The notes below the pieces were generated by a model, which ran no database searches, was not told the DNA's origin, and worked only from the letters and a program-made list of their open reading frames with translations. A program made the position numbers and the translations under genes. DNA of 64,000 nt from Pachyseris speciosa (Eukaryota > Cnidaria > Anthozoa > Scleractinia > Pachyseridae): contig JAEMWC010000260.1 of NCBI GenBank assembly GCA_016490735.1, positions 162,501 through 226,500 on the forward strand. Direction: 5' to 3'. Shown here one piece after another: positions 42,215-64,000 of this stretch (the stretch's first letter is position 1; every line of letters begins with the position of its first letter).

Positions 42215-43356
42215 CTACGACCTTGACGTAAAATGAAACTTTGCTTCTACCACGATGATCAGGTTGTATCAACAAGCACAAATACGTGTATGTGACAATT
42301 AAGGTCTATTCACCAAACAAATTTCCTAACCGTCATTAGCTTGCGCTACTTTGTCGTCTCGAGCGATATGGACTCTCTACAATATGTTTAGCACATACAC
42401 GAATCGATGCTAGATCTTGTCAGGATCTATTGGCGTTTTAGCCTTGACAAATTAAAAATTATGCATTATAACTTTACGATTATGATTCCCGTTATGGTGA
42501 AATTTTAATTATCTGCTGAGTATCACTTACTCGATTACCAAACAGCCCCAGTAAAGATAACTGAGATAATTAGTTAGATTTTAGAACAAATAAACGAACA
42601 AAAAAATACATCATTTAAATGTTTAAGTTTTGTAACGCACGGCCGTCTTTCGCAAATAAAAATAATAAGAAATGACAATAAAAAACCAAACGGTTTGCTA
42701 GTTGAGTTACAAAACACACACGTCGGGATAACAGGAAATAAATACTCACAATGCAATCAGTGGTTTTTCTAAGCACCGCGGCCATAAAGGAAGTTAAATC
42801 TCCAAGGGATGACTCTGAAATCGGAACTTTATCTGGGGCTTTCCTCGGTTATTTCGCGTATCACAGTAATTTGCGTTGCTTTTGTTTTCGTATCCTGATG
42901 CACACGCCAGTTCTCCATGCTACTGCAGAATTGCCAACTGAATTCTTGCTTAATTCAGTATTTTAGTACAATAAAGTTTGTCATAAATTCGCACTGGATT
43001 AATCAAACCTTTGATATCTTCTAGCTGTTTATTCACACCATAACCCGTTTTTTTCCAAACCGTGGCTATAAGTGTGCTGCTGGTGTCGTTTGGTCAACAT
43101 CTATACAGCACTTTTTCTGTCAAATAAGCAATTACAAACACCGGCTCTGCCTGATCATTTACGGGATTTTGTTTATGTTTATTTCTCTAAACGGGCTGGC
43201 GTGCAATGTTAAGTCAAAATTAATTGTGAACAGGCTAAGCGCACATAACAGAGCTTTATAACAAGATGAAGCCAAACAACGACAATGTGGAGTATGACCG
43301 TACTGGGTGCCTGGTGGACAGCAGAAAACCAGCACCGTAATGAAAATGCTTTCCAA

Positions 43357-46300
43357 GGGTGTCTGGAAAACTCAGACCTAGAAAACTCAGACCTCAGACC
43401 TCAGACCTAGAAAACTCAGACCCCCCCAATCTGGAAAACTCAGACCCCCTCATAACTTTACAAATTTTCAAAGTCAAATAAACGTGGGCAAAATGAATTA
43501 TCGCCGTTCAGTGCGCTGAAATGTTACACCCTCCGTTTATCGCAGATAACAAACACTTCACCTTTGTCGTCCCATGTTATTATAATCGGCTCCGGAGCAC
43601 AAGACCTAGAAAACTCAGACCCCCCCAATCTGGAAAACTCAGACCCCCTCATAACTTTACAAATTTTCAAAGTCAAATAAACGTGGGCAAAATGAGTTAT
43701 CGCCGTTCAGTGCGCTGAAATGTTACACCCTCTATTTATCGCAGATAACAAACACTTCACCTTTGTCGTCCCATGTTATTATAATCGGCTCCGGAGCACA
43801 AGACCTAGAAAACTCAGACCCCCCAATCTGGAAAACTCAGACCCCCTCATAACTTTACAAATTTTCAAAGTCAAATAAACGTGGGCAAAATGAATTATCG
43901 CTGTTCAGTGCGCTGAAATGTTACGCCCTCTATTTATCGCAGATAACAAACACTTCACCTTTGTCGTCCCATGTTATTATAATCGGCTCCGGAGCACAAG
44001 ACCTAGAAAACTCAGACCCCCCAATCTGGAAAACTGAGACCCTCTCATAACTTTACAAATTTTCAAAGTCAAATAAACGTGGGCAAAATGAGTTATCGCC
44101 GTTCAGTGCGCTGAAATGTTACACCCTCTATTTATCGCAGATAACAAACACTTCACCTTTGTCGTCCCATGTTATTATAATCGGCTCCGGAGCACAAGAC
44201 CTAGAAAACTCAGACCCCCCCAATCTGGAAAACTCAGACCCCCTCATAACTTTACAAATTTTCAAAGTCAAATAAACGTGGGCAAAATGAATTATCGCCG
44301 TTCAGTGCGCTGAAATGTTACACCCTCTATTTATCGCAGATAACAAACACTTCACCTTTGTCGTCCCATGTTATTATAATCGGCTCCGGAGCACAAGACC
44401 TAGAAAACTCAGACCCCCCCAATCTGGAAAACTCAGACCCCCTCATAACTTTACAAATTTTCAAAGTCAAATAAACGTGGGCAAAATGAATTATCGCTGT
44501 TCAGTGCGCTGAAATGTTACGCCCTCTATTTATCGCAGATAACAAACACTTCACCTTTGTCGTCCCATGTTATTATAATCGGCTCCGGAGCACAAGACCT
44601 AGAAAACTCAGACCCCCCCAATCTGGAAAACTCAGACCCCCTCATAACTTTACAAATTTTCAAAGTCAAATAAACGTGGGCAAAATGAATTATCGCCGTT
44701 CAGTGCGCTGAAATGTTACACCCTCCGTTTATCGCAGATAACAAACACTTCACCTTTGTCGTCCCATGTTATTATAATCGGCTCCGGAGCACAAGACCTA
44801 GAAAACTCAGACCCCCCCAATCTGGAAAACTCAGACCCCCTCATAACTTTACAAATTTTCAAAGTCAAATAAACGTGGGCAAAATGAGTTATCGCCGTTC
44901 AGTGCGCTGAAATGTTACACCCTCTATTTATCGCAGATAACAAACACTTCACCTTTGTCGTCCCATGTTATTATAATCGGCTCCGGAGCACAAGACCTAG
45001 AAAACTCAGACCCCCCCAATCTGGAAAACTCAGACCCCCTCATAACTTTACAAATTTTCAAAGTCAAATAAACGTGGGCAAAATGAATTATCGCTGTTCA
45101 GTGCGCTGAAATGTTACGCCCTCTATTTATCGCAGATAACAAACACTTCACCTTTGTCGTCCCATGTTATTATAATCGGCTCCGGAGCACAAGACCTAGA
45201 AAACTCAGACCCCCCCAATCTGGAAAACTCAGACCCCCTCATAACTTTACAAATTTTCAAAGTCAAATAAACGTGGGCAAAATGAATTATCGCTGTTCAG
45301 TGCGCTGAAATGTTACGCCCTCTATTTATCGCAGATAACAAACACTTCACCTTTGTCGTCCCATGTTATTATAATCGGCTCCGGAGCACAAGACCTAGAA
45401 AACTCAGACCCCCCCAATCTGGAAAACTGAGACCCTCTCATAACTTTACAAATTTTCAAAGTCAAATAAACGTGGGCAAAATGAGTTATCGCCGTTCAGT
45501 GCGCTGAAATGTTACACCCTCTATTTATCGCAGATAACAAACACTTCACCTTTGTCGTCCCATGTTATTATAATCGGCTCCGGAGCACAAGACCTAGAAA
45601 ACTCAGACCCCCCAATCTGGAAAACTCAGACCCCCTCATAACTTTACAAATTTTCAAAGTCAAATAAACGTGGGCAAAATGAATTATCGCCGTTCAGTGC
45701 GCTGAAATGTTACACCCTCTATTTATCGCAGATAACAAACACTTCACCTTTGTCGTCCCATGTTATTATAATCGGCTCCGGAGCACAAGACCTAGAAAAC
45801 TCAGACCCCCCCAATCTGGAAAACTCAGACCCCCTCATAACTTTACAAATTTTCAAAGTCAAATAAACGTGGGCAAAATGAATTATCGCCGTTCAGTGCG
45901 CTGAAATGTTACACCCTCTATTTATCGCAGATAACAAACACTTCACCTTTGTCGTCCCATGTTATTATAATCGGCTCCGGAGCACAAGACCTAGAAAACT
46001 CAGACCCCCCCCAATCTGGAAAACTCAGACCCCCTCATAACTTTACAAATTTTCAAAGTCAAATAAACGTGGGCAAAATGAATTATCGCTGTTCAGTGCG
46101 CTGAAATGTTACGCCCTCTATATTTATCGCAGATAACAAACACTTCACCTTTGTCGTCCCATGTTATTATAATCGGCTCCGGAGCACAAGACCTAGAAAA
46201 CTCAGACCCCCCCAATCTGGAAAACTCAGACCCCCTCATAACTTTACAAATTTTCAAAGTCAAATAAACGTGGGCAAAATGAATTATCGCCGTTCAGTGC

Positions 46301-49300
46301 GCTGAAATGTTACACCCTCTATTTATCGCAGATAACAAACACTTCACCTTTGTCGTCCCATGTTATTATAATCGGCTCCGGAGCACAAGACCTAGAAAAC
46401 TCAGACCCCCCCAATCTGGAAAACTCAGACCCCCTCATAACTTTACAAATTTTCAAAGTCAAATAAACGTGGGCAAAATGAATTATCGCCGTTCAGTGCG
46501 CTGAAATGTTACACCCTCTATTTATCGCAGATAACAAACACTTCACCTTTGTCGTCCCATGTTATTATAATCGGCTCCGGAGCACAAGACCTAGAAAACT
46601 CAGACCCCCCCAATCTGGAAAACTCAGACCCCCTCATAACTTTACAAATTTTCAAAGTCAAATAAACGTGGGCAAAATGAATTATCGCTGTTCAGTGCGC
46701 TGAAATGTTACGCCCTCTATATTTATCGCAGATAACAAACACTTCACCTTTGTCGTCCCATGTTATTATAATCGGCTCCGGAGCACAAGACCTAGAAAAC
46801 TCAGACCCCCCCAATCTGGAAAACTCAGACCCCCTCATAACTTTACAAATTTTCAAAGTCAAATAAACGTGGGCAAAATGAGTTATCGCCGTTCAGTGCG
46901 CTGAAATGTTACACCCTCTATTTATCGCAGATAACAAACACTTCACCTTTGTCGTCCCATGTTATTATAATCGGCTCCGGAGCACAAGACCTAGAAAACT
47001 CAGACCCCCCCAATCTGGAAAACTCAGACCCCCTCATAACTTTACAAATTTTCAAAGTCAAATAAACGTGGGCAAAATGAATTATCGCCGTTCAGTGCGC
47101 TGAAATGTTACACCCTCTATTTATCGCAGATAACAAACACTTCACCTTTGTCGTCCCATGTTATTATAATCGGCTCCGGAGCACAAGACCTAGAAAACTC
47201 AGACCCCCCCCAATCTGGAAAACTCAGACCCCCTCATAACTTTACAAATTTTCAAAGTCAAATAAACGTGGGCAAAATGAATTATCGCTGTTCAGTGCGC
47301 TGAAATGTTACGCCCTCTATATTTATCGCAGATAACAAACACTTCACCTTTGTCGTCCCATGTTATTATAATCGGCTGCGGAGCACAAGACCTAGAAAAC
47401 TCAGACCCCCCCAATCTGGAAAACTCAGACCCCCTCATAACTTTACAAATTTTCAAAGTCAAATAAACGTGGGCAAAATGAGTTATCGCCGTTCAGTGCG
47501 CTGAAATGTTACACCCTCTATTTATCGCAGATAACAAACACTTCACCTTTGTCGTCCCATGTTATTATAATCGGCTCCGGAGCACAAGACCTAGAAAACT
47601 CAGACCCCCCCAATCTGGAAAACTCAGACCCCCTCATAACTTTACAAATTTTCAAAGTCAAATAAACGTGGGCAAAATGAATTATCGCTGTTCAGTGGGC
47701 TGAAATGTTACGCCCTCTATTTATCGCAGATAACAAACACTTCACCTTTGTCGTCCCATGTTATTATAATCGGCTCCGGAGCACAAGACCTAGAAAACTC
47801 AGACCCCCCCAATCTGGAAAACTCAGACCCCCTCATAACTTTACAAATTTTCAAAGTCAAATAAACGTGGGCAAAATGAGTTATCGCCGTTCAGTGCGCT
47901 GAAATGTTACACCCTCTATTTATCGCAGATAACAAACACTTCACCTTTGTCGTCCCATGTTATTATAATCGGCTCCGGAGCACAAGACCTAGAAAACTCA
48001 GACCCCCCCAATCTGGAAAACTCAGACCCCCTCATAACTTTACAAATTTTCAAAGTCAAATAAACGTGGGCAAAATGAATTATCGCCGTTCAGTGCGCTG
48101 AAATGTTACACCCTCTATTTATCGCAGATAACAAACACTTCACCTTTGTCGTCCCATGTTATTATAATCGGCTCCGGAGCACAAGACCTAGAAAACTCAG
48201 ACCCCCCAATCTGGAAAACTCAGACCCCCTCATAACTTTACAAATTTTCAAAGTCAAATAAACGTGGGCAAAATGAATTATCGCCGTTCAGTGCGCTGAA
48301 ATGTTACACCCTCTATTTATCGCAGATAACAAACACTTCACCTTTGTCGTCCCATGTTATTATAATCGGCTCCGGAGCACAAGACCTAGAAAACTCAGAC
48401 CCCCCCAATCTGGAAAACTCAGACCCCCTCATAACTTTACAAATTTTCAAAGTCAAATAAACGTGGGCAAAATGAATTATCGCTGTTCAGTGCGCTGAAA
48501 TGTTACGCCCTCTATATTTATCGCAGATAACAAACACTTCACCTTTGTCGTCCCATGTTATTATAATCGGCTCCGGAGCACAAGACCTAGAAAACTCAGA
48601 CCCCCCCAATCTGGAAAACTCAGACCCCCTCATAACTTTACAAATTTTCAAAGTCAAATAAACGTGGGCAAAATGAATTATCGCTGTTCAGTGCGCTGAA
48701 ATGTTACACCCTCTATTTATCGCAGATAACAAACACTTCACCTTTGTCGTCCCATGTTATTATAATCGGCTCCGGAGCACAAGACCTAGAAAACTCAGAC
48801 CCCCCCAATCTGGAAAACTCAGACCCCCTCATAACTTTACAAATTTTCAAAGTCAAATAAACGTGGGCAAAATGAATTATCGCCGTTCAGTGCGCTGAAA
48901 TGTTACACCCTCTATTTATCGCAGATAACAAACACTTCACCTTTGTCGTCCCATGTTATTATAATCGGCTCCGGAGCACAAGACCTAGAAAACTCAGACC
49001 CCCCCAATCTGGAAAACTCAGACCCCCTCATAACTTTACAAATTTTCAAAGTCAAATAAACGTGGGCAAAATGAATTATCGCCGTTCAGTGCGCTGAAAT
49101 GTTACACCCTCCGTTTATCGCAGATAACAAACACTTCACCTTTGTCGTCCCATGTTATTATAATCGGCTGCGGAGCACAAGACCTAGAAAACTCAGACCC
49201 CCCCATTCTGGAAAACTCAGACCCCCTCATAACTTTACAAATTTTCAAAGTCAAATAAACGTGGGCAAAATGAATTATCGCCGTTCAGTTCGCTGATATG

Positions 49301-49330
49301 TTACACCCTCCGTTTATCGCAGATAACAAA
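43357..49330 (+). repeat. Left terminal inverted repeat and array of about 30 copies of a 199-bp satellite
   Basis: After a composite end built from AGAAAACTCAGACC and CTCAGACC words, the 199-bp unit repeats about 30 times with very high identity. Copies differ at a few sites: C-run length (6, 7 or 8), TTACACC/TTACGCC, CTATTTATC/CCGTTTATC/CTATATTTATC and ATCGCCG/ATCGCTG. The TATATTTATC variant recurs about every 600 bp (near 46116, 46715, 47315, 48510) and the 8-C variant at 1.2 kb, a higher-order pattern. The innermost copies decay (from about 49298), and a degenerate half-copy persists to about 49500. Confidence 0.93.
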
Positions 49331-50846
49331 CACTTCAGCTTTGTCGTCTCGGCTCTGTGATCAGAACACAAGACCTAGAAAAGTTAGAGCGCCCTCCCCC
49401 CCCCCCAACAAAAAAAATTAAATAAATAAATATTTAAATAAAAGAAAGGAAAAAAAACCCGGAAAACTCAGATCTCTCGCAAAACTGTATAATTTGAACA
49501 GAAAAAGAAAGTTGAGTACATTAATTTACGTTGTCCATTAAGGTGAAATGTCAGGCAGACCCAACAACATAACAAAAACAACAACTTTATTGAATTCTTT
49601 TACATATGGTAATACCCTAATAAAAAAACGTTATATTTAATGCGGTTATTGATAACCTCTTTCTCGTAAGGCTTCGTATACAAAATAACCCAATTTCGTT
49701 CAGATAAAGGGGCTGTTAAAAACAAATAAGTATTTTGTTAATTAGTGTGATTTAGAAGATCATACTTGTAACGCACCTTAATTGTATTTGGATTTGATTG
49801 TCGGAGTAGGTGGAGTGCAATTAGAAATAACATCAACGCCACTTTATTGTTTCAATAGAGCTATTTAAAACGATAATTTCGAATATGAGAATCAACCGAA
49901 TGTGAGGTCGAAGTTGATTAATTAATAGCTACAATCTATGCACCACTTAGGAACCACCAATGAACTCAATACAAGTCGCGGGATTCTTGTCTCATCTCTT
50001 GCTTGAAGTGGATTTTAGTCCTTCTGATGTGGGTAACACATAATCGTTGTCGTTGTTGTCATCATAATCATTTTCAACGATGCAACGACTTACACAACAG
50101 CTGTTAATGGTAACTTCTTTGAACGCTTGATTTAAATGTTCCAATCAATAAAACTATTTTAATTGTGTTTTTGATGATTTAAGACCAATGACTTTGTGAA
50201 CATTCCCCCATGCAGCCACCAATTCCTACAACAACGTATTGTCGTATTAATTCCCGCTTTTGTTGTCAAAATCAACTATGTATCACTGGTTATTTTACAA
50301 AGCTTTTAACTTGAACAATGCTTTTAAACAATGCTAGTATCATATCACTGGTTATTTTTAAAAACCTTTAATTAACTTGAACAATGCTATTATTTCAAGC
50401 TATTTCAGTCGACTTAATATGTTTTCATTAACGTGTTGGTTCTGATGGAACTTAGTAATTATTTGTTGGGCCTTTAAATTTTTTTAAAGGCGTTCCTAAG
50501 CTCGTTTTTTTCACGTCGCGATAATTAAGTACTTATTTGAAAGCAAAACGGCGAAAGCTAACGCTGAACCTCGGCCGAGGTTGGAAAAGACATGCTGAAA
50601 TGACTAAATTGTTCGACACAATATGAAAACGATTTCGCATTTAGTTTACCGCATATGGAAAAGGAGAGGAACGACCAAGTTTTGCTGCTTGGTCTTTATC
50701 ATTTCTTCTGAAACATGTAATCCACAGCCCGAAGGAGAATGTGCAGAGGCTATATCAACCATAACCGAGAAAATGAATTTGGTATCAATCTCGCAACTAG
50801 ACAAATTCCCTTGTGCCAGCGATACGAGAATGGTATAACGTAAATA
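49331..50846. other. AT-rich spacer between left array and transposase gene
   Basis: It begins with a degenerate satellite half-copy (CCCGGAAAACTCAGATC near 49458). No coding region is supportable. As it lies 3' of the minus-strand gene it probably includes the 3' UTR and poly-A site; AATAAA on the minus strand occurs near 49842 and 49583, rather far away. Confidence 0.5.
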
Positions 50847-51068
50847 GGGAGTTTAAGCAAAGCCTTTTTTAAGCGACGTACGTCAACCGGAAGTGTGCAT
50901 TTTTTATATTTAAGCAGTGGTTGTGCACATATTTTCAAATAAATCGTCTCTATTAGAGTAAAGACACTTGGTAATGCAAATCTGGTAGCACCAAGACGGG
51001 TAAAAGAGAAAATACCTCACTTCCGGTTGACGTTGGTCGCTCAAAAACGGCTATGCTTAAACTTCCTA
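50845..51068. mobile_element. 220-bp TA MITE nested in the giant element
   Basis: The element spans 50847-51066 between TA dinucleotides. The left end GGGAGTTTAAGCAAAGCC and the complement of the right end GGAAGTTTAAGCATAGCC match with few differences, and pairing continues through CGTCAACCGGAAGTG, giving arms of about 50 bp. It lies 35 bp past the stop codon of the transposase gene, so it may supply part of the 3' UTR. Confidence 0.8.
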
Positions 51069-51100
51069 ATGTCAGTTGCTACACCTCGCTATGCCCAACT

Positions 51101-53797
51101 TCATGGATTGTATTGAAGTTCGTCTTCGAGGAGATCGAAGTGGGACTTCTGTAAACGTGAATGAGCCTCTGTATGAATCTGCAATAAGGATGGATCAAAG
51201 TATGGAAAACGGGTTTCTATGCAGGATTTCTTGACGCAGTAGAATTTTGTGGTCAGTCTTGCCGATGGAAGTTTGCAACGAGGATCATCGGGTGCTGGAT
51301 ACAACCACTTCTCTTCGTGCGACAGGACAATATCGAAGGGTGTTATCTTTTGCCTTCGCGGAAATTCGATGCGGCATTGCCTGCACTCCTGCGCTTTTGG
51401 CACATCGTCGAGAAAGCATACGACGAAAGGCTTGTTGTTGTGGTGTACTTCGGTAAAGGGACGTCCACTGGTTGTTTGAGGCGTTTCCACCGTGGCCTGC
51501 CTGCTTGGTCGCCATGGGTTCCTGTGGCTGCCACCTTTCTTCCCTTGAGCTGCTTTTGCAGGCTCGAGAAGGTCACCTTTCAACGGAGCTTTGCGCTTTG
51601 GCGATTTTTTCAGGAAGTCCAAGTGTTCCTTCAAGACTCCTACCGTCTCTGCAACGCAGATACTGTGCTTACAGAGGTTGTTGTATTTATAGCACGGACA
51701 GGAACAGCTTACGTGATCACTGTAGACGGAGCATTGGTACATTCCCTTTTGGCAATTCTTTGCAGCAACCAGATAGGTTTCCCTAGAGGGAGATGTCAGT
51801 GATGGCATCTTCTGTATGGCGTCTTTGACGTTTAGCAGTGCTTCTGCTTCCTTCACAATAGTGGCTACCAGACCGTCTGTCCAGCTCTTCAAGGACTTTA
51901 ACATCATTCCCACGTCAACAGAAAACACTTTGTACTCTACGTCTTCAACGTTAGGTACCCGAGTAGCCCTTATGGGCTTTCCCTTCAGGGCGTCATCGAC
52001 AGACATTTTGTTGAACTCTTTCATGTAGGCTTGTCGTTCACCTACAGTCATGTCAAACCACTGGTCTGGGGTAACTTCCAAATGGGCAACGACGTCTGCC
52101 AGTTGATACTCGCCGCTTAGTCCACAAATCGCCAACGTTAGCTCCTCTTGTTGATGGCTGTCAACTTCCTCCCAAACATCCTTCGTAAATTGTAACTTCG
52201 TCATATCCACTTTGCTCTTGTCATTCTTTGCTATAGCCTCTTTCTGTCGGGTCAACTTGTTGTTTATGCTTTCTGACTGGTTCGTGTAGCTCTTGAGGGG
52301 TTTCCCCGACTTGTCAGTAGGCATCCCCGCTTTCTTTCTTGCAGTTGCAATCATGCATTTCTTCATCATTTTCTTATGACTTTGCAGGTAGCTCCAAAAT
52401 TCAGGCGTTTCTTTTCCGGTCAGCTTTACCTCCTCGGCGTCTAACGGTTCTTTCGCTGCCATCATGCATGCTTTGAGGTCAGATTTCTGATCTGCATCTA
52501 AAATACCTCGGGACGTTGCACTTCCAAAGATGGTTTCTATAAAGAATTTCTGTTCCGTAGGCTTTCTAATTCCAAGGTTGTGTAGCTTGTCACGACAATT
52601 CTGTTGGAAGTGTCGGAAACATCTTAAGCCTGTGGCATGCCGCATTACCTCGCCTAGAGCACTGTAAAGGGACTCTTCGCCATCTGTAATAAAACCCTTT
52701 CCTTTCTGGGCAAGATTGGGACTGGAATTGGCGACAGCATGAACGATCTTCTTATATACACTCTTGTGTTTGCTGTAATGAATAGCTGTTGGTCCTAGAA
52801 ATGATGGGGCACCACCAGTTCGTTTGCAGGTCAGGAACAGGTGTTTGTATGTGAATGGAGTGACCTCAAATTTGCCGAAATTAAACGTTGGGTCCACACT
52901 CAGCGGGTAACTCAATTTTTCAGAGGTACAGAACCTCGATAAGTCCATTGTCATGTGGGGCTTAGCTAATACCCATAGGTCCTCTGGAACGTCGTGATGT
53001 TCGAGCACGACTGGTTCTTCGGCGTGCTTAGCGTATTGGAGCAGCTCGTCGACGTCATCAGTTTTCTTCAGTTTGTTTTTAAGATTGTACAATTGTTGTT
53101 TGGAGCGTGGCAACTCCCCCGGCTCTGTGGCACCCAAAGCTCCACCTGCAGATACTGACACGTTACGAAAGGCCACGGCAGATGAGTTAGAGTGCATTTC
53201 GTCTTTAATGGCTTGCAGAGTGCTCTTCTTTGTGGGATAGAAAGGCTTTCGTTTTTGGCACTTGCTATTTCCATGCGATGATACTTCAAAAACCACTTCA
53301 TTACATCCTTCCTTCGCCATTGTATACTGAAGCAAGATAGTGGAATTTACAATTTCTCCATCTCGTCCTCTTAGCAAGAAGAGTGAACGACACAAGCCCG
53401 CCTTATTCCGCATTGAATTTGTGTAAACATGGAATGCTCTATCGGTTTTCAATTCGGTCTTCTTCTTTTCGAGAGTCTCCACGTTATTTTCTTCGTCAAC
53501 TACCACCGTCCACGTACAAATGCGCAACGTGTCAGAATAGACGCCATTCATGTCACTTTTAACGTCTTGCCAGCATTTGTATTTTGTGACATCAACAAGA
53601 AAGGATAGGTTTTTCCTTGTTTTCAAGGGGGTCTTTGTGCATTTCGATTCTTGTGGTTGTTCACTCAAGAGAATTTTTATCGCTTCTCTGATGGTGTATC
53701 TTCCTTTTTTTCCACATTCAAAGATAGGCAGGTGTGTGTCATTATTGTACAACAACGGGGTGGACACTTGTGTCTTAGTCTCCAAGTATTTTTCTTT
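51101..53797 (-). CDS. Exon 8 of the fusion: MULE transposase with SWIM zinc finger
   Basis: The exon encodes 898 residues, starting KEKYLETKTQ right after a TTTTAG acceptor whose TAG is in frame; the first internal ATG lies about 80 codons in. Counting from LETK as 1: MULE core about 290-510, with VDPTF (Asp298), TDGEE (Asp368), a CFRHF block (Cys389, His392) and NQSESINNK (Glu505) as the likely D-D-E set; SWIM finger CSC...CKH at 694-707 (C-x-C-x8-C-x-H); basic linker; C-terminal cluster C801xxC804, C850, C855, H871, H875 that may bind zinc. It resembles the MULE transposases common in invertebrate genomes. It should cut and join DNA at the element ends in the nucleus. No frameshift or lost residue, so it is probably active. 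Confidence 0.92.
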   Translation of the reverse strand, partial: KEKYLETKTQVSTPLLYNNDTHLPIFECGKKGRYTIREAIKILLSEQPQESKCTKTPLKTRKNLSFLVDVTKYKCWQDVKSDMNGVYSDTLRICTWTVVVDEENNVETLEKKKTELKTDRAFHVYTNSMRNKAGLCRSLFLLRGRDGEIVNSTILLQYTMAKEGCNEVVFEVSSHGNSKCQKRKPFYPTKKSTLQAIKDEMHSNSSAVAFRNVSVSAGGALGATEPGELPRSKQQLYNLKNKLKKTDDVDELLQYAKHAEEPVVLEHHDVPEDLWVLAKPHMTMDLSRFCTSEKLSYPLSVDPTFNFGKFEVTPFTYKHLFLTCKRTGGAPSFLGPTAIHYSKHKSVYKKIVHAVANSSPNLAQKGKGFITDGEESLYSALGEVMRHATGLRCFRHFQQNCRDKLHNLGIRKPTEQKFFIETIFGSATSRGILDADQKSDLKACMMAAKEPLDAEEVKLTGKETPEFWSYLQSHKKMMKKCMIATARKKAGMPTDKSGKPLKSYTNQSESINNKLTRQKEAIAKNDKSKVDMTKLQFTKDVWEEVDSHQQEELTLAICGLSGEYQLADVVAHLEVTPDQWFDMTVGERQAYMKEFNKMSVDDALKGKPIRATRVPNVEDVEYKVFSVDVGMMLKSLKSWTDGLVATIVKEAEALLNVKDAIQKMPSLTSPSRETYLVAAKNCQKGMYQCSVYSDHVSCSCPCYKYNNLCKHSICVAETVGVLKEHLDFLKKSPKRKAPLKGDLLEPAKAAQGKKGGSHRNPWRPSRQATVETPQTTSGRPFTEVHHNNKPFVVCFLDDVPKAQECRQCRIEFPRRQKITPFDIVLSHEEKWLYPAPDDPRCKLPSARLTTKFYCVKKSCIETRFPYFDPSLLQIHTEAHSRLQKSHFDLLEDELQYNP

Positions 53798-54104
53798 CTA
53801 AAAGAGGAAAAAAAGCATCGTTATATTTGGCGTTTGCTCAGATATGTAGCAGGCTAACAATTTCACAGTAATCGGGCAATAAGATTTAGGCGGGCTTTTG
53901 TTTACTTGTTTATCGAATCGCACGGCAAAAGAATCAAATCAAAATCAAATCAATTCACGATTTATTTAAGCTGGATAGCGTAGGGAGTGGTTGCCCAATC
54001 TCTCGAGCCGGGGCTCATGTATTGAACGTCCGAGCATTCCGGATCGAATGCGAATTTAGAAGTGCTGGTTTTTGAGGAGAGGGAAAAATCGAAAAATCCG
54101 ATGG

Positions 54105-54144
<40 letters not shown>

Positions 54145-57100
54145 AACCCACATATGACGTTGAGTCCGGGAATTTGTCTCGGGTAGATCAGTACTTACCC
54201 ATACGTGAACTAAATTAATGTCATTCGCTCAACGGAAGGTTATTTTTTTTTTAAACCTTGCCAGTATCTCTGAAAGAAAGACTCTACATCTAACCTAAAA
54301 CTATATCATTCGTGCGACCTACCTCTGTGGTTTCCTCTTCAGATGAAGAAAGGTCGATAGAATGTGGTGGTGAGCCAGGTTTTCTCTTGGTAGGCGTAAC
54401 CTAGAAATAACAATTTTGTTACAATGACATCATTTATACTAAAATACGAGCTTGTTCTTAATACGAGTGTTGTGTTAACTTTGCATTTGCCATATCACAC
54501 ACTTTCTGACCTTCTACAAAGCCAGTAAAAATTACTGAAACTTGGTATTGATACTGGTGCAGATTTTTCCTCCAAGTTATCAATAATGTCGGCTTGTCTT
54601 TTTTCACACCAATGCCCAGTTTAAGGTGTCTACTTAATTATAATTTTATTAGGTTCTTCATCACTCAGTAGCCACTTAATAATCACAAGGTCCTACTGAC
54701 ATGGAAACTGAAAACCTAACACGGGGCGATTTTTCGCCCGAAGCGAGGAAATGTAAGTTTTTTTTTTGGCGCACCTGTCCACTATAATGTGCCATTCCAG
54801 TAGCCAGTACATCCAAAAAGTCTTGTACTTGCCCGGATGTACGGTTATTATCAAATCGTTGTTGTTGTTGTTTTTTTGTCAGTTATGTACGACTTACCTG
54901 GGTGATTGGCTCTCCACAGGAAGAAAGGTCAATGTCAATGGAATATTGTGGTGGGCCCGCTTTTCTCTTCGCGGTTGCTCTAGCCTGGAAGAAAAAGCAC
55001 TTTTTACACCGCTCATTTTCTACTCATGATCAAACCTCCATTTTAAATTCATCTCTTGCCTTTACAACAATTTGGCACATTATTCACCTGAGCTGTCTGT
55101 TCTTCTTGAGAAAGATCAATAACAACTGGTGCGGTTTGCCTCCTATTCCTTGTATCCTTAGAGATTAAAAACAGTTTAATTAGTTAACAATGCTGTAGTT
55201 CTTGCTTAAGTTGTCTTTTTTAACACGAAGTAACTCTCGTGATCTACGATTGCATGACGGTTAACTTGAAAATCATAGACCAATTAGAACTCACGGAAGT
55301 TTCCCAAAGGCCTTTCAGTGCTGAGCTCTCTCTGACTACGGGACGTTTGAAAGGTGGAGAATTTGTGATAGCTCGGGAGTGGCAAATCAGGCCTATTTCC
55401 ACCTATGACAAGTGCAAGACTTACATACATACATGCATACTTTATTGAACCTCCCCAAAGGGGCTTTTCTTGATTCTAGATGAACATAACATCTTGGAAA
55501 TATGTCCAAACGGTTTTCGCAACACTCCAAACTTAATTTTGCATCCAACGACTTTCTTGCTTTCACTCATGAATGTGCAAGCAAAAGCATCGCGAAAACA
55601 ACAACTTGTATTGAAAAGTAATTGAATGCATGGGGTTATAGATATGCGCATACCTGGTCAGATATGGGTCCCCCGTCATTTTCCTTGACATGAAGTGGGT
55701 CCATACCAAACGAAGCAGCTGCTCCAAAGTCGATTGCCTCCTAAAGCCAATTAAATCAAATTTAAAGGACAGCAACGTATAGGGAATTTCTTTAGTAAAT
55801 GCAACATTGGAAGCTCAGTTAACTATGATATATTAATTCCTAGCACGAAGTTTTCAGAAAGATATGAAAGTGGTTTGGGATCTACCTGATCTATGTTCTC
55901 ATCTTGAGACAAGTCGTTAGAAGGTGATTTTACAGTTTGTGTCTTGCCGCTTGCAGCCTGAAAGCAAAAGAATATAATAACATTTGGCAGGCTAACGAGG
56001 TTGTTAATGCCACACTGCTAGAAATTTCAATTGGGTACATAACAAGTTCTTATTACTTCGATTTGAAACTGTGTAACGGAGACATTTTTTTACAAGTGTA
56101 TTTCCAACGTAATTCGAGTACGATGTTCCATTGGAGGCGCCTGTGTTTCACGCGTCAAACAGACTGAAACAGTTTCACCCCGAACAGAATGGACTCGTTC
56201 ACTGTACCTTATCACCACTCTTTCCCTGGCAGCTTCGTTTGCCCTGCATTTGTTCATTAGGTAAGGGTACTTCGCATTTTCTCTTTGTGGAACCTTTTGA
56301 TCTAGGAGGTTCTTCTGAAGATGAGCTGCAATTTGAATCCCGTTTGTCAGCCGGTGTTTGGTTGTTATTTCCATCACTGCTATAAACGAACCCATTAACA
56401 CAAGAAAATTAAACATTTCACCGACACACTGGAAACAACGCAAAATACCTATCATACGTTACTCGTAGAGGGCGTCCAGTACTTTTCAGCAAGGTAACGG
56501 TACGTTACATGCTGCGTACATATATAGAAATCACACCAAAAATTCAGATTACAGAAATTGTGAGGATATAAAACAGGAAATGGACATTCTTTTCATTAAC
56601 AGTTGTGTTGGAGCATTAAAATGGAAAACGCGCGAGGGTAACAGTAATTAACACACAGCGAAGGAAGACAGCATTTCAATAAATGGATTGGTGGTGTGCC
56701 TGGAAGTTTTCTTTAGCGCAACGAGCCTTTCGTTCAAATCAATACGAATGAAATTGTCGTAAAGGTACAGTGGGTTGACATGGCACGTTCAGTTCAGCCT
56801 ACACTCCCCACCCACCTACCACCCCGTTTAATAGCTAGACTGTCATCTCATTTCCAGATCAATACAAAATCATGTACGTTCATTCTAATTACCTTGCTGT
56901 TGGTTTCATGACAGAAAGAGACTGGCTTGTACCCTCCTTTACACCAGCACTCAAGAGTCTGTCCCAGAGCCAGATACAAAGTGATCTCCATGTCGAATCG
57001 GTGTTGTTTCTTCCCACTATCAGGGAGCCAGTGTGTGTGTCGATAAGGAACGGCCTTTCCCCGGTGCAGCCGATAAGTAAGATATACGGAACACTGGAAA

Positions 57101-58631
57101 AAATGGCAGTGAAGGCGTTCTCTCCAAGGGTACATAATTTGTCATGCAGCCTCTTCCTTGACTCAAAACTGTATATGCAATCTGCATATGGCAGCTCTTC
57201 AAAAAACTCATATCTGGAATTAAGAACTTTTATCTGTGACAGAATTGAGTACGCTTCTAACACATCGTACAGCCTGGCCACGTCGCGATGGTCATTTACT
57301 TTTTCGGGCAAACACCAAATAACTTCTTCAACCATTTCAGCTACGGAAACAGTGTCTGATATGTTCCCGTCAAGTTCATGAATTATCCTGTCACCAATTT
57401 TTACAGAAAGAAAGGCGCAGGCATTAGTGCCCTCATTGGAAACATTGACTGGACCGGGTGACTGGTTCTGATTCTGTATACGGTTGGCAATTTCGCGGTC
57501 CGCCTGTTCGATGGCAGTGCCTTGTGTAACACTTAACTTCACAACGTCACAGGTTTTATAGACGTCGTATTTCCCATCTAGTACCTCATCGATATCACAC
57601 AGGGTAAATCGCTTGCTGGGGTCGAAGTTAGTGCAGCCAAGGTACACTTCCTCTAGGTAGGACCAAGCAGTCGCGCGGCTTTTATTGTACTTGCCATCCG
57701 ACTTGGGAAGTTTCTTGTTGCGGAGAAGGTTGCTTACAAACTTCTGGACATCCCCCTGCGTTGCAATGGTTTCTTTTGATGATCTTATCTCCAGCAAATA
57801 GGGACACTTGAGGCTTGGATTTATCATCGTAAAGAAGGTCATACCAAGAGCCCAGATGTCAGACGCCATCAGATTGTGGAGAGATGCTTCAAAAGTGCTG
57901 TTATCCTGGACCAGGAGTTCAGGAGACATGTAGACCGCAGTGCCTCGATCTACGCGTTTGGTTTTTGTGGCGAGAACAGTGTTTGTTTGAACACTGTGTG
58001 AACGGCTTTCCCCGAAATCCGTGAGCTTGCAGACTATAGGGCGTGTGGTAAAATGCACTCCAATCTGATCTTCGCCGCTTAATGTAGAGTAATGTTGGTT
58101 GCTTGCCAAAACATTAGCTGGTTTTAGATCCCGATGAGCAACGCCATTAGCGTGGAGGTAGGCCAGTCCACGTACAATATCTCTAGCAGCGAACATAAGC
58201 AGGTCTTCAAACCCTTCAAAGCTGTACTCAGCGTCAATGTGAAGCAGGAGGTCATCTAGAGAACTCACTCGTTTATTCTCTCCAAAAGGAATAAAACTGA
58301 AATACAGATACTCCAGCATTAAGGCGCAGGGTTTGTAGCAAACCCCTTTCATATGTACAACGTTTGCATGATCCAAACCTTTGAGAAGAGCGACTTCTTT
58401 AAGGAAAAGCTTCCTTTCTTCCGCGTCAAGTGCTCTGATTGCTTTCTTGATTACCACTGTTTCGCTAAAAGGTTGTCGAGGATCCACGTGTTCTGCTGTG
58501 TAAACCTCACCAAAACTTCCTTGGCCGATCCTGTTCTTGACTTTCAGTCGATTAGGGTCAAACACTGGCACTCCTGCAATGCTTGTAGTATTGTGGTTTC
58601 GAAAAACCGGTAGTTTGAATTGTTTAGACAT
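51101..58631 (-). CDS. Fused protein kinase / Cys-His domain / SIM-repeat / MULE transposase, 8 exons, 1,666 aa
   Basis: Model: exons 58631-56893, 56379-56208, 55957-55886, 55740-55654, 55156-55088, 54984-54898, 54400-54323 and 53797-51101. All introns are GT-AG, exon 1 ends in phase 2 and every later junction is phase 0; the total is 5,001 nt with no internal stop. Order: protein kinase (about 25-350), Cys/His domain (about 390-560), acidic and SIM-bearing linker (580-768), MULE transposase with SWIM finger (769-1666). The start is the ATG giving MSKQFKLPVF; a good acceptor (CCCTTTCAG) lies 9 nt upstream, so a 5' UTR exon is possible. The alternative, two separate genes, is unlikely because the last exon lacks an initiating ATG and is preceded in frame by TAG. 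Probable role: mobilising this element, with extra domains acting on host phosphorylation or SUMO pathways (inference). Confidence 0.8.
54323..56379 (-). CDS. Exons 2-7 of the fusion: linker with repeated SUMO-interaction-like motifs
   Basis: Six short exons, found by hand from splice sites and frame. Exon 2 (56379-56208) gives an acidic/basic segment with SNCSSSSEEPPRSK and STKRK. Exon 3 (55957-55886) has SNDLSQDE. Exon 4 (55740-55654) starts EAIDFGAAASFGMD. Exon 5 (55156-55088) has VVIDLSQEE. Exon 6 (54984-54898) has TAKRKAGPPQYSIDIDLSS. Exon 7 (54400-54323) has TKRKPGSPPHSIDLSSSEEE. Hydrophobic-hydrophobic-D-L followed by Ser and acids is the classic SIM form. Exons 6 and 7 share KRKxGxPPxxSID and look like an exon duplication. 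The KRK blocks could be nuclear localisation signals. Exons 3-7 are 69-87 nt and symmetric (phase 0), so each could be skipped or duplicated without breaking the frame. Confidence 0.75.
56893..58631 (-). CDS. Exon 1 of the fusion: active-looking protein kinase plus C-terminal Cys/His domain
   Basis: Kinase landmarks, numbered from the ATG: glycine loop GQGSFGEV (36-43), VVIKK with Lys62, helix-C Glu79 (FLKEVALL), catalytic loop HRDLKPANV (166-174), DFG at 205-207, YMSPE (Glu238) in place of APE, SDIWALG (Asp258), and the late Arg341 (PSKRF). All catalytic residues are present, and HRDLKPAN fits Ser/Thr specificity. The rest of the exon (about 390-560) holds EGTNACAFLSV (Cys405) and, 128 residues later, FLIDTHTGS (Asp531, His533). 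The Cys and D-x-H spacing resembles papain-fold deubiquitinase-like proteases, but this is a pattern-level guess. The exon ends in AG at the donor GTAATT; read through, the frame stops at once. Confidence 0.88.
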
Positions 58632-59039
58632 GATTAGCGCCTGAAAGGGAACGACGCTGAACGATGTGACCTTGCACTGCTTGTAGCCAAAATGCAAAAT
58701 TTCGCGCCAAATTATCACGTGTTGTTTGCCTCGTGTGACCGTCACACAACTACCACTAGTATAAAATGCTTTTTATTACTTATGATCGATTATAAGATAT
58801 GTAGCAGCCCTTTATTCCCTTCGTTTCCTCTTCACACAAATCAGCTACAAAAAGTCGACTCGTAACATATGACCTGGTCTTAGTATTTTTGATCTGCGAA
58901 ACATTTCACCCCAATCCTGAAACGCGTACGTCACTCATGGTTTATTTTTAGAGCACAAAGATAATCTCTCTAATGAGACAACAAGGACGTTCAATGTTTG
59001 TTATCTATTCAATTCAGTACAGAAATTGTACAAACAGAG
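58632..59039. other. 5' spacer between transposase gene and right satellite array (likely promoter region)
   Basis: About 400 bp upstream of the minus-strand ATG. It contains the candidate acceptor at 58641 and an open but ATG-less extension of the kinase frame to 58745. I could not identify a TATA box or other defined promoter element. The region next to 59040 shows decayed satellite. Confidence 0.35.
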
Positions 59040-60605
59040 GGTGTAACATTTCAGCGCACTGAACGGCGATAATTCATTTTGCCCACGTTTATATGACTTT
59101 GAAAATTTGTATAGTTTTGAGGGGGTCTGAGTTTTCCAGAATGGGGGGGTCTGAGTTTTCTAGGTCTTGTGCTCCGGAGCCGATTATAATAACATGGGAC
59201 GACAAAGGTGAAGTGTTTGTTATCTGCGATAAATAGAGGGTGTAACATTTCAGCGCACTGAACGGCGATAATTCATTTTGCCCACGTTTATTTGACTTTG
59301 AAAATTTGTAAAGTTATGAGGGGGTCTGAGTTTTCCAGAATGGGGGGGTCTGAGTTTTCTAGGTCTTGTGCTCCGGAGCTGATTATAATAACATGGGACG
59401 ACAAAGGTGAAGTGTTTGTTATCTGCGATAAATAGAGGGTGTAACATTTCAGCGCACTGAACGGCGATAATTCATTTTGCCCACGTTTATTTGACTTTGA
59501 AAATTTGTAAAGTTATGAGGGGGTCTGAGTTTTCCAGATTGGGGGGGTCTGAGTTTTCTAGGTCTTGTGCTCCGGAGCTGATTATAATAACATGGGACGA
59601 CAAAGGTGAAGTGTTTGTTATCTGCGATAAACGGAGGGTGTAACATTTCAGCGCACTGAACGGCGATAATTCATTTTGCCCACGTTTATTTGACTTTGAA
59701 AATTTGTAAAGTTATGAGGGGGTCTGAGTTTTCCAGAATGGGGGGGTCTGAGTTTTCTAGGTCTTGTGCTCCGGAGCCGATTATAATAACATGGGACGAC
59801 AAAGGTGAAGTGTTTGTTATCTGCGATAAATAGAGGGTGTAACATTTCAGCGCACTGAACGGCGATAACTCATTTTGCCCACGTTTATTTGACTTTGAAA
59901 ATTTGTAAAGTTATGAGGGGGTCTGAGTTTTCCAGATTGGGGGGTCTGAGTTTTCTAGGTCTTGTGCTCCGGAGCCGATTATAATAACATGGGACGACAA
60001 AGGTGAAGTGTTTGTTATCTGCGATAAATAGAGGGCGTAACATTTCAGCGCACTGAACGGCGATAATTCATTTTGCCCACGTTTATTTGACTTTGAAAAT
60101 TTGTAAAGTTATGAGGGGGTCTGAGTTTTCCAGATTGGGGGGGTCTGAGTTTTCTAGGTCTTGTGCTCCGGAGCCGATTATAATAACATGGGACGACAAA
60201 GGTGAAGTGTTTGTTATCTGCGATAAATAGAGGGTGTAACATTTCAGCGCACTGAACGGCGATAACTCATTTTGCCCACGTTTATTTGACTTTGAAAATT
60301 TGTAAAGTTATGAGGGGGTCTGAGTTTTCCAGATTGGGGGGGTCTGAGTTTTCTAGGTCTTGTGCTCCGGAGCCGATTATAATAACATGGGACGACAAAG
60401 GTGAAGTGTTTGTTATCTGCGATAAACGGAGGGTGTAACATTTCAGCGCACTGAACGGCGATAATTCATTTTGCCCACGTTTATTTGACTTTGAAAATTT
60501 GTATAGTTATGAGGGGGTCTGAGTTTTCCAGATTGGGGGGGTCTGAGTTTTCTAGGTCTGAGGTCTGAGGTCTGAGTTTTCTAGGTCTGAGTTTTCCAGA
60601 CACCC
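59040..60605 (-). repeat. Right terminal inverted repeat and array of about 8 copies of the 199-bp satellite
   Basis: It is the same unit in opposite orientation, about 7.7 copies, followed by the same composite end. The CATTCTGG variant seen only in the innermost left copy (near 49204) is also in the inner right copies (near 59136, 59338, 59738), so the arms are homologous position by position and the left one has expanded. The innermost copy carries extra changes. Confidence 0.93.
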
Positions 60606-61497
60606 TGCTTTCCAACCGCACGCTGTTACGTTGGAAAGCATTTATTCTTATATATAAAAAATTGTGTATATGCAGCCATGAAAGGTCATTAAATATAATT
60701 AACCTATCTATTGTTGTCCTTCGATGTACTAAGTCACATTTTATTCGTTACCTCGAAGAGTTTTGTTGTTACGCTCGACTTTCTTTATGACCTCTTGGAC
60801 TTCTATTTTCTGACGAGACAAAGAGCGAAAGATACATGTTCTTCTCCACAGATATATGTCTACTCCACAACATGCTGCCAGCTACACGGCAGTACGGAAG
60901 TGCCTGTGTGAGATGCATTCAGGGCAAGATCAAGGCGAAAACATTCGCTGACCACAACGAAACACAATTACGTTTGTGTTTGTCATAAAATAAACATTTC
61001 ACTATGTTGTTAGAAGCAGCCAAAAAGTCTTAGCTGACAGCGTGGAAGCATTCTATGAGTGCCTATGGTGAGACTGAAAATCGTTGACTTTTTCGTGACC
61101 CCTAGTTGGCCTCATTCCACACGCTTCATGATAAAAAATTCCACTCACTGCAAATCTCACTGACAAGATGTACTACTTAGGTTCAAAGAATACTAAAATG
61201 TAAAGTGATGATTTGGAGTCGAGTGGCCTTACTAGACTAACTACACACTGCGCACTACAAGTAACAGATCTTAACATACTGTCCTATTTGGTCAATTAAG
61301 TCTACACTATCATTTGCTCCCCAGCATAAAGTGGACCGATGAAGGGTAAATCTAAAATGCATGACACTAAACATATTTTTCTTTTCTGCTAAAATAAACC
61401 ACTGCACATCACAAAATGTGCGTACCACACTACAGACAATTAAAGAGATGGATCGATCATTAGTCTCAATTAGCTTCAATTAATTTCCTTCGCGTCA

Positions 61498-62690: not shown

Positions 62691-64000
62691 GAAGCGATAG
62701 AAGAATAAAAGGCATCCAATCAACAAACCATTCCTTTCTTTTCTTTTCGTTTTCTGATTACCATAATGTCTTGGAAGGTTGCCACATGATGTAATTTACT
62801 TGTTGATGAATGAATGTATTTATGTATTATTTAATTCATATGTTTGTTGATTAATGTATTCAGTCGTTTATTTAATCAGTTATCTGACACAAATACAGTA
62901 CGGCAAATTAAAACTTAGACCCACGATCAAGAATTAAAATAAATATCTCAATCAATGAAAGTATATTCGACAAGGCATAAAACCTTTTCTACCTGACATC
63001 TGAAACCGAACTGACCTCACGGTAAACAAATCATTTGCGATGTTTACTGTCAAATCCTAACAGATCTAAGAGCAAAATAAGTTTTTCAAAGGAAATAAAT
63101 CAACTATACAATGCTGTAATAATCCGAACACAGGAGGTAATTGAACAGAACTTGAGAAGAGTGCGTTACTTAGTGTCCTGTTCGTTACCCCGGCCTGTAA
63201 ACAGTTGCCTCGGGGCTACAGAACACTGTTCGCCTGTTTGTTTTCATTGTGTGAAAGACTTGCCAAACCAAAACGTAAAATCGCAAAATAAACATTTACT
63301 TCTTCCTCTAAGAGCAGCTGCATTGCATGTGTCACCTGGTATGATCTTCAGAAAAACAAGTGCACAATTGAAAAGTGATGTTATAGCAGACAAATCTTTA
63401 GCAAAGCATATGTCTTTTTTTCCAAAAAAAAAATCAATTATTTTTCAATCAAAACATGCAAAATATCCAACATTTTCCAGAAGAATGCGGTGCTTTGCGA
63501 ATTTTGTATTCCATCTTCACTTCGAAAGTCAAAAGTTCTGTTGTCCTACGAAGTTTGAAATTTTACACTGACCCCTTCAGTGAGGTGGCCTCAGTTTATT
63601 TCCCGTTAAACTACGTAGATCTAGAATACTAAGATATCATAAAATCTGAAATCGAAAATGAAGAAAAATTTGGGTTAGATACTGTTTCTCTGAGGGGTCC
63701 TTCGTTTAATCGGTGGAAATATTAATTAAACTTAAATTTTGAATGATGAGAAGTTATACTGATGTGGCAACTATAAAACCCAAAATTCTGAAAATACTGC
63801 AATAAACTGTTTGAAAATCCAAAGAAATATATACACTCACATTTTCCACGCTGCAGTCGCATATCTGCAGTTCAGGGGAGTACGATTGGTAAAAACCAGA
63901 CCGCGGCCGGACAACAGCAATTGCACTGCACCCTGAAATTGTGCAAATTTTCCAATTTCCTGGTCTTTCGAAATAATTCTTCTATTCAAACCGTGAATAA

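Follow-up and report, generated by a model that had tools for sequence, protein, structure and literature searches.

Does the gene at positions 51101 to 58631 of this coral DNA encode one protein, in which a protein kinase is joined by splicing to a transposase, or are two proteins made there? The question arose from an original prediction made on the window, i.e. the whole stretch of 64,000 nucleotides of Pachyseris speciosa DNA analysed here. Our preferred reading, to which we assign a probability of about 60%, is that a single spliced gene encodes a multi-enzyme transposase composed of a kinase, a VTD-like deubiquitinase, a SUMO-binding-like linker and a DDE (MULE) domain with a SWIM zinc finger.

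The element and its gene

The window contains a Mutator-like cut-and-paste transposon that is complete, was recently mobile and has a single spliced gene. The features of the element, the gene and the protein domains are the following.

43357-60605, Mutator-like element, whole and complete, 17,249 bp
43347..43356, no strand, left copy of the target-site duplication TGCTTTCCAA
60606..60615, no strand, right copy of the target-site duplication TGCTTTCCAA
43357..49348, no strand, left terminal inverted repeat: GGGTGTCTGG terminus, then a 199-bp unit x29.8
59032..60605, no strand, right terminal inverted repeat: inverted 199-bp unit x7.7
56893..58631, minus, exon 1 (1739 nt): protein kinase and VTD-like domain, phase-2 donor
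57591..58544, minus, protein kinase domain (Pfam Pkinase, score 117 bits, cut-off 31.7)
58113-58136, minus, kinase HRDLKPAN
58011-58019, minus, kinase DFG
56934..57449, minus, VTD-like domain (Cys ... Asp-x-His)
57417-57419, minus, Cys405 of the VTD-like domain
57033-57041, minus, D-T-H of the VTD-like domain
56208..56379, minus, exon 2 (172 nt): linker, basic and serine-rich
55886..55957, minus, exon 3 (72 nt): linker
55654..55740, minus, exon 4 (87 nt): linker
55088..55156, minus, exon 5 (69 nt): linker with VVIDLSQEE
54898..54984, minus, exon 6 (87 nt): linker with SIDIDLSS
54323..54400, minus, exon 7 (78 nt): linker with HSIDLSSSEEE
51101..53797, minus, exon 8 (2697 nt, phase 0): DDE transposase of MULE type and SWIM zinc finger, ending in TGA
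52598..52804, minus, Pfam MULE (PF10551) stretch, sub-threshold for the window copy
~52894, 52684 and 52273, minus, exon-8 catalytic residues D302, D372 and E509 (positions calculated from residue numbers)
51644..51739, minus, SWIM zinc finger (PF04434), sub-threshold for the window copy

The sequence GGGTGTCTGG is present at each end of the element, the arms of its inverted repeats are 97-100% complementary (25 of 44 pairs shown), and the 10-bp target-site duplication is perfect. A second copy (C579), 99.96% identical to the window over 8,004 bp covering the gene, lies in an element of 15,061 bp flanked by its own perfect 10-bp duplication, GTGTGTACTG. Terminal inverted repeats, and a duplication of 10 bp in both of the copies read at both ends, are what is expected of Mutator-like elements, for which Table 1 of PMC6446971 gives target-site duplications of 8 to 11 bp. 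The original prediction had spanned the gene only, while the element takes up 43357-60605. An Rfam search of positions 43000-61000 returned 0 matches, and no relatives were found in the viral-contig and genome-contig collections searched.

The gene runs on the minus strand from 58631 to 51101, and its eight exons join to 5,001 nt, coding for 1,666 aa without internal stop. Recomputation reproduced the predicted exon lengths exactly (1739, 172, 72, 87, 69, 87, 78 and 2697 nt), as well as the GT-AG borders of all seven introns, their phases (2 for intron 1, 0 for the others) and the terminal codon as the sole stop. It was likewise borne out that exon 1 is a kinase ending in a splice donor, with an immediate stop (AGG TAA) on read-through, and that exon 8 has no early start, the first ATG being codon 83 and an in-frame TAG standing at its acceptor. 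In all 10 aligned near copies, GT is kept at 7/7 donors and AG at 7/7 acceptors; as these copies are only 0-5% diverged, and four of them apparently represent a single locus, this conservation is weak evidence if taken alone. A phase-2 donor is found at the same place in the divergent copies C206 (AG/GTAAAT), C87 (AA/GTGAGT) and C17 (CG/GTAAGT), so that the donor with its built-in stop is kept in three of the four divergent copies read, while that of the fourth, C695, gives none. The D-T-H motif occurs in 43 of the 70 exon-1 relatives read, and in 26 of the 43 the end comes exactly 8 residues past QS[LFIM], just as in window exon 1 when it is read through.

These stops bear on the possibility that two proteins are made, namely a free kinase-deubiquitinase from exon 1, with intron 1 kept or polyadenylated, and a transposase from exons 2-8 with another start; the exon-1 donor would then be a switch, as splicing is in the P-element. 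The built-in stop of the donor in the window, C206, C87 and C17 fits this possibility, and so do C1547, C1616 and C1794, whose exon 1 is full-length and stop-free but whose exon 8 is interrupted by a stop at codon 242. However, a phase-2 GTRA donor always yields a stop, which for this reason is in itself no sign of regulation, and the C695 donor yields none. Moreover, none of exons 3-7 breaks the frame, the length of each being divisible by three, exon 8 lacks a start up to codon 83 and has a stop directly upstream, and the relative P0052 holds every domain in a single ORF. In the remaining copies with the codon-242 stop (C2186, C536, C1942 and C1107), exon 1 is either damaged or absent; since the copies with this stop and an undamaged exon 1 are all one locus, we have lowered our estimate and now consider two separate proteins unlikely. 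From the sequence of the window copy, we infer a fused kinase/VTD-like/transposase protein.

Domains of the predicted protein

The window kinase possesses K62, HRDLKPAN and DFG. In the corresponding alignment (A1; 45 rows selected from 134 matches), the kinase Lys is present in 34/34, the HRD Asp in 39/39 and the DFG Asp in 40/40 aligned rows, the remaining rows being gaps, and the Lys, Glu, HRD Asp and DFG by which eukaryotic protein kinases are recognized are invariant among the aligned rows. Judged by these residues, the domain appears to be an active-looking kinase of conventional fold.

The second domain of exon 1, predicted as a Cys/His domain, shows a Cys followed by Asp-x-His in all 18 rows of its own alignment (A3; selected from 39), and in the aligned rows of A1 the Cys is found in 43/43 and Asp-x-His in 36/36 (remaining rows, gaps). 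On a linear reading, the His falls at about position 159 of PF04843 in P0135, in P0147 and in one canonical VTD of the same genome. None of the three profile comparisons (PF04843, 8adb, hhalign) gave significant similarity to VTD proteins. PF04843 matched 3 of the 18 domain members, with a best, sub-threshold E of 0.032, and the unrelated family PTPS_related scored better in one member (E 0.0097). The PDB entry 8adb was retrieved at E 0.34, ranked under an unrelated GTPase (E 0.18), and in a further search at E 0.18, ranked under an unrelated protein (E 0.018); a search with another domain member found no protease. When profiles of the domain and of 14 canonical VTDs from this genome were compared by hhalign, no valid alignment resulted (probability 1.7%, wrong register). 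Because profile similarity is not significant and unrelated families score better, we call the domain VTD-like and not a VTD member. The better scores of unrelated families in the same searches also led us to lower our estimate for a VTD fold, which we still find reasonably likely; the domain is probably a VTD-type deubiquitinase.

The SIM motifs predicted for the linker could be sustained only in part. Three [VI]D[LIV][ST] cores are indeed present, against 0.03 expected, and 0 of 20,000 shuffles reach three, whereas the general SIM pattern is not significantly enriched in the window (p 0.08) and is absent from P0052. In addition, exons 6 and 7 are duplicates (72% alike over 83 nt), and the cores are therefore not independent. 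SUMO-binding by the linker is thus suggested at the level of motifs only.

As for the transposase, PF10551 was found at E <=1 in 32 of 38 selected members (best 2.3e-5), the value for the window copy alone being 0.036, under the cut-off. In the A2 alignment (38 rows selected from 53 matches) the catalytic residues are present in 37/37 (D), 38/38 (D) and 35/35 (E) aligned rows. The SWIM profile PF04434 reached E <=1 in 23 of the same 38 (best E 3e-4), with the first Cys in 34/36 aligned rows and the other three positions in 35/35. A PDB profile search with the transposase gave no useful match.

Relatives and co-inheritance

The predicted fusion of kinase, Cys/His domain and transposase is upheld by its relatives. 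P0052, which shares 30% and 32% identity with the halves of the window protein, contains all three parts within a single ORF of 1,484 aa. Five divergent copies from three families of the same genome (C206, C87, C17, C1503 and C695) have the order and strand of the window, with exon-1 identities to it of 41-51% in C206, C87 and C17. Of the 14 near-family contigs, 12 have kinase and transposase on one strand, with the kinase at the 5' side. Kinase and transposase identities are correlated (Pearson 0.97, Spearman 0.85, for 28 pairs of 8 sequences, the pairs not being independent), and parts of the two trees match. The P0052 ORF, the order and strand shared by the divergent copies, the recurring donor and the joint divergence indicate that the fusion is more than a peculiarity of one locus. 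At C1503, open frames of 2,745-2,779 aa were rejected as a gene because they coincide with a run of 7,500 N.

Between the window and C844, both intact, there are 4 silent and 0 changing substitutions in the kinase and 2 and 0 in the VTD-like domain, and dN/dS of the transposase is 0.27. This shows purifying selection on kinase and transposase between these copies. Older pairs are not all constrained, the VTD-like domain having a dN/dS of 1.1 (C1547-C95) and 2.6 (C95-C1172).

Capture of gene fragments by Mutator-like elements has been described (PMC6431247), and a similar picture could in principle arise, with a coincidental splice model, if a single element had taken up a host kinase gene or if such a gene happened to lie next to it. 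Against this stand the recurrence of the architecture in P0052 and three divergent families, its maintenance in the near-family contigs and the selection on the kinase. We regard such a capture as highly improbable; a chance splice model with a neighbouring host kinase is contradicted by the P0052 ORF, the order in the divergent copies and the matched divergence.

Kinase-less relatives, which according to the original prediction would speak against the fusion, were encountered in an equivocal form. C1942 and C1107 (98% identical) do lack exon 1, but both match from intron 2 on and carry the exon-8 stop. No exon-1 match was found for the transposase relatives on 23 contigs (<=50% identity).

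The kinase-VTD cassette might also be an independent effector, counter-silencing or repair-modulating, traded among mobile elements, with the MULE as one carrier. At eight places in the same genome, kinase and VTD-like matches lie in frames of one reported length, from 591 to 1,948 aa, and none of the eight is among the listed transposase contigs. At C85, the sole place read, the frame runs on to encode a RecQ-like helicase, with DEAD at 78.5 bits, Helicase_C at 55.9 bits and RQC at E 0.009, the last under the cut-off. The same genome has 26 PF04843 matches, and VTD domains have been described in Helitrons (PMC9741609). However, the kinase matches at these places are weak (27-28% identity over ~150 residues, E ~3e-5 to 9e-5), the C85 helicase ORF was read in part, with mobility judged by copy number alone, and the joint divergence of kinase and transposase in eight sequences favours stable co-inheritance inside the MULE. 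We give an independent cassette appreciable, though less than even, chances. Slightly more doubtful is the general proposition that animal DNA transposons possess a kinase-deubiquitinase cassette, swapped among unrelated elements (MULE, RecQ-like helicase ORF), by which the phosphorylation and ubiquitin signals of the host are rewritten where transposition takes place; if true, a eukaryotic transposon would carry a counter-defence or repair-hijacking module inside its transposase polypeptide.

Proposed function and known systems

If the gene produces one multi-enzyme transposase, as we prefer to think, its transposase half would bind the inverted repeats, and the other two enzymes would reach the transposition complex along with it. 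There the deubiquitinase could remove ubiquitin from the transposase, or from nearby chromatin or repair proteins, so that the transposase is spared destruction, while the kinase may phosphorylate the transposase or host repair and silencing proteins, and in this way license excision or reinsertion. The linker might anchor the protein at SUMO-rich chromatin. Given the in-frame stop in the exon-1 donor, retention of intron 1 could yield an additional, free kinase-deubiquitinase protein.

The window element resembles Mutator-like elements (MULE/MuDR) in its 10-bp duplication, in its long inverted repeats and in a DDE transposase that has CxxH and a SWIM finger; it differs from them by the N-terminal kinase and VTD-like domain in the transposase protein. 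Plant KI-MULEs carry a ULP1-like SUMO protease, i.e. a cysteine protease of the ubiquitin/SUMO family; they are, like the window element, MULEs with a cysteine protease, although of a different class, and are not known to have a kinase. Table 1 of PMC6446971 lists OTU (MuDR-6_HM) and SET among other MULE motifs, and the main text of that article has 0 mentions of "kinase". The Mutator-related Rehavkus also has a minisatellite adjoining its inverted repeat, but it encodes a PHD finger and its inverted repeats measure 26-400 bp, while those of the window are satellite-built and 1.6-6 kb long (PMC6446971).

The VTD deubiquitinases found in Helitrons and in herpesviral tegument proteins share with the window the Cys ... 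Asp-x-His signature and the association with transposons (PMC9741609), and in corals and sea anemones VTD domains are fused to other regions, including transposon-associated domains (Erven 2022, PMC9741609; 0 mentions of "kinase" in its main text). Unlike the Helitron VTDs, the VTD-like domain of the window is carried by a cut-and-paste MULE, and its sequence similarity is sub-threshold. The nearest precedent found is given by the fungal IS3EU transposons, which are also DNA transposons with a kinase; theirs, however, is an alpha-kinase encoded by a separate gene in opposite orientation to the transposase, whereas the window kinase has a conventional fold (PMC12730594). The original prediction knew of no kinase-transposase fusion in eukaryotic transposons, and none was found in the open-licence literature searched.

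The usual view is that transposases depend on kinases and ubiquitin signals supplied by the host. One with its own kinase and a probable deubiquitinase would extend cut-and-paste elements by a new class of accessory enzyme and would make phosphorylation and ubiquitin control of transposition testable in one protein, and the near-identical copies make a transposition assay realistic.

Gene structure and mobility of the element

The original prediction of a gene fusing a protein kinase and a Cys/His domain to a transposase proved correct in its model, with eight minus-strand exons running from 58631 to 51101 (5,001 nt, 1,666 aa), and its splice sites and phases were confirmed, every intron being GT-AG and the phases being 2, then 0.

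Domain content of the minus-strand gene, window 58631 to 51101
Exon 1: protein kinase (Pfam Pkinase, 117 bits) and Cys/His domain
Exons 2-7: short linker
Exon 8: transposase of the Mutator-like element (MULE) type with a SWIM finger

In the window copy alone, the MULE (E 0.036) and SWIM (E 0.03) matches are both under the Pfam cut-off, while among 38 aligned relatives of exon 8, at E up to 1, MULE is matched in 32 (best 2.3e-5) and SWIM in 23 (best 3e-4). An imperfect palindrome (about 224 bp, 72%; window 50845-51068) follows shortly after the stop codon. Its outer arms of 51-59 bp are 86-90% alike in near copies of the element, and it may fold into a hairpin within the 3' UTR or represent a small insertion.

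The gene lies inside a complete element of 17,249 bp (43357-60605), which reads GGGTGTCTGG inward from both ends and is flanked by TGCTTTCCAA, a perfect 10-bp duplication. Each inverted repeat consists of repeated 199-bp units, 29.8 of them in the left array and 7.7 in the right, and the arms are 97-100% complementary among the 25 of 44 pairs listed. An inverted copy of the duplicated target, TTGGAAAGCA, occurs within 35 bp of the flank (window 60606-60640), implying insertion in or beside a small palindrome.

Copies were searched for in the window's own genome (984 Mb), where exon 8 has at least 55 matches and exon 1 at least 78. The copy on contig C579 is 99.96% identical to that of the window across 8,004 bp of the gene, and belongs to an element of 15,061 bp with C in place of the first G at its left end; since its flanks are unlike those of the window and it has a duplication of its own, GTGTGTACTG, it represents a separate, recent insertion. 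Of the 14 near-family contigs that we counted (exon 8 matched at 74% identity or more), 12 carry the kinase 5' of the transposase and on its strand; the count omits C1504 (a 60% match beginning at the contig's second base) as well as C1905 and C1133 (kinase without an exon-8 match, in C1905 at the end of the contig). The exceptions, C1942 and C1107, match the element from intron 2 onward only. Independent insertions are fewer than contigs, because C1547, C1616, C1794 and C2186 appear to be a single locus: the flanks of the first three are 99.3-99.9% alike across 0.7-1.5 kb, and shorter pieces of C2186 match them at 97.6-98.2%. Three plus-strand ORFs that resemble one another (173-181 aa, TNHLRCLLS...; window 8095-8616, 24654-25196 and 63026-63571) are apparently copies of one repeat family.

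Conservation of the fusion

The kinase-Cys/His-transposase fusion is old. The database protein P0052 (1,484 aa) combines the kinase, an NACAF...DTH domain and the transposase within a single open frame, and its identity is 30% with exon 1 and 32% with exon 8; it starts within the kinase domain and is found on four contigs, the longest of 6,341 bp. The same order and strand are kept at five loci of the window's genome (C206, C87, C17, C1503 and C695), which count as three families, since C87, C1503 and C695 are 82-94% alike. Most of these loci carry frameshifts, and in C1503 a 7.5-kb gap of N separates the kinase and transposase halves. The exon-1 donor was compared in the other four: its place, phase 2 and stop are kept in C206, C87 and C17, and C695 has the GT with no stop after it.

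D-T-H is present in 43 of the 70 exon-1 relatives read, and 26 of the 43 end exactly 8 residues past QS[LFIM], like the window's exon 1 when read through; these would stop there at a donor. P0146, an Acropora millepora gene model, runs beyond this end point into IDL(S/T) motifs. The longest contig has 81,610 bases for both P0013 (transposase) and P0156 (kinase), which suggests that they lie on one contig. Kinase and transposase identities covary (Pearson 0.97, Spearman 0.85; 28 non-independent pairs from 8 sequences), and the kinase and transposase trees share the groups (window, C95) and C206 plus (C695, C87, C1503); C17 and P0052 are long branches of unsure placement. In C17 (stretch L030), tandem matches to the N-terminal part of the transposase (reverse-complement 5761-6363 and 6764-9403) are a possible domain duplication.

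Between the window and C844, silent and changing differences number 4 and 0 in the kinase, 2 and 0 in the VTD-like Cys/His domain, and 17 and 17 in the transposase (dN/dS 0.27); with C1547, dN/dS is 0.36, 0.07 and 0.17, respectively. Over eight pairs, it ranges from 0 to 0.55 in the kinase, 0.17 to 0.56 in the transposase and 0 to 2.6 in the VTD-like domain, where it exceeds 1 in two pairs that include decayed copies (C1547-C95, 1.1; C95-C1172, 2.6). In exon 8, 5 of 10 aligned copies share a stop at codon 242, which cuts off the catalytic part of the transposase. Exon 1 is full-length and stop-free in C1547, C1616 and C1794 (one locus) and damaged in C2186 and C536; the five copies are possibly non-autonomous.

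The 189 linker residues contain three [VI]D[LIV][ST] cores against 0.03 expected from shuffling, those of exons 6 and 7 not being independent because these exons are duplicates. A broader SUMO-binding motif pattern gave p 0.08 in the window and no match in P0052.

Assignment of the Cys/His domain

N-x-C-x-F and D-T-H are invariant among 18 diverse members, and an Asp-x-His motif, with the Asp first, characterizes VTD deubiquitinases (PMC9741609). Of these members, 3 matched Herpes_teg_N (PF04843), at best with E 0.032, as did 2 of 10 full proteins, with E 0.061 and 0.14, and the His falls at about profile position 159, on a linear reading, in P0135, P0147 and one canonical VTD of the same genome. 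PDB 8adb, named as a deubiquitinating enzyme and presumably a Waddlia VTD, was reached by the profile at E 0.34 and by a single member at E 0.18, the active-site Cys being aligned in both cases. However, an HflX GTPase (E 0.18) scores above it in the profile search and a molybdenum cofactor protein (E 0.018) in the single-member search, and one member matches PTPS_related at E 0.0097. No protease was found with another member as query, and hhalign against 14 canonical VTDs gave a probability of 1.7% in the wrong register. Sequence support for the assignment is weak; we regard the domain as VTD-like, and put a true deubiquitinase fold at roughly two chances in three. Canonical VTD domains occur at 26 places in the genome, four of them in ORFs longer than 2,700 aa that are probably Helitrons.

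Relatives, precedents and possible function

By our count, transposase matches of at most 50% identity occur on 28 contigs, 23 of which have no exon-1 match, an absence that is soft because the exon-1 search scored 75 of 229 candidates; the C3 and C444 loci were read across 4 kb. Such relatives imply that the kinase was either acquired inside the group or lost by some of its lineages. With P0137 as query, eight places showed a weak kinase match (27-28%) together with a VTD-like match, in frames between 591 and 1,948 aa long.

Places matched by P0137 in the window's genome
Kinase and VTD-like frames: C85:564281-568000, C95:1511705-1513417, C2347, C178, C789, C1171, C779, C241
VTD-like match only: C678, C2359

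The places form a repeated family; at C85 the frame extends into a RecQ-like helicase, which suggests that the kinase-VTD cassette has been shared among element types. Named relatives include Acropora millepora, Desmophyllum pertusum, Paramuricea clavata and Actinostola, suggesting a coral-like host. Transposase relatives in the sea cucumber Holothuria leucospilota (P0029, P0044) and kinase relatives in the ribbon worm Lineus longissimus (P0149, P0160) suggest that the elements reach past Cnidaria.

No kinase-transposase fusion was found in the open-licence literature searched. IS3EU transposons carry an alpha-kinase as a separate gene (PMC12730594), and corals are said to possess VTD domains fused to transposon-associated domains (PMC9741609). 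The element is classed as a MULE with a predicted multi-enzyme transposase. The tethered kinase and deubiquitinase may act at transposase binding sites. There, the deubiquitinase would protect the transposase, or the chromatin nearby, against ubiquitin signals. The kinase would license the transposase or modify repair or silencing by the host, and the linker would keep the protein where SUMO is abundant. If intron 1 were retained, the product would be a free kinase-deubiquitinase.
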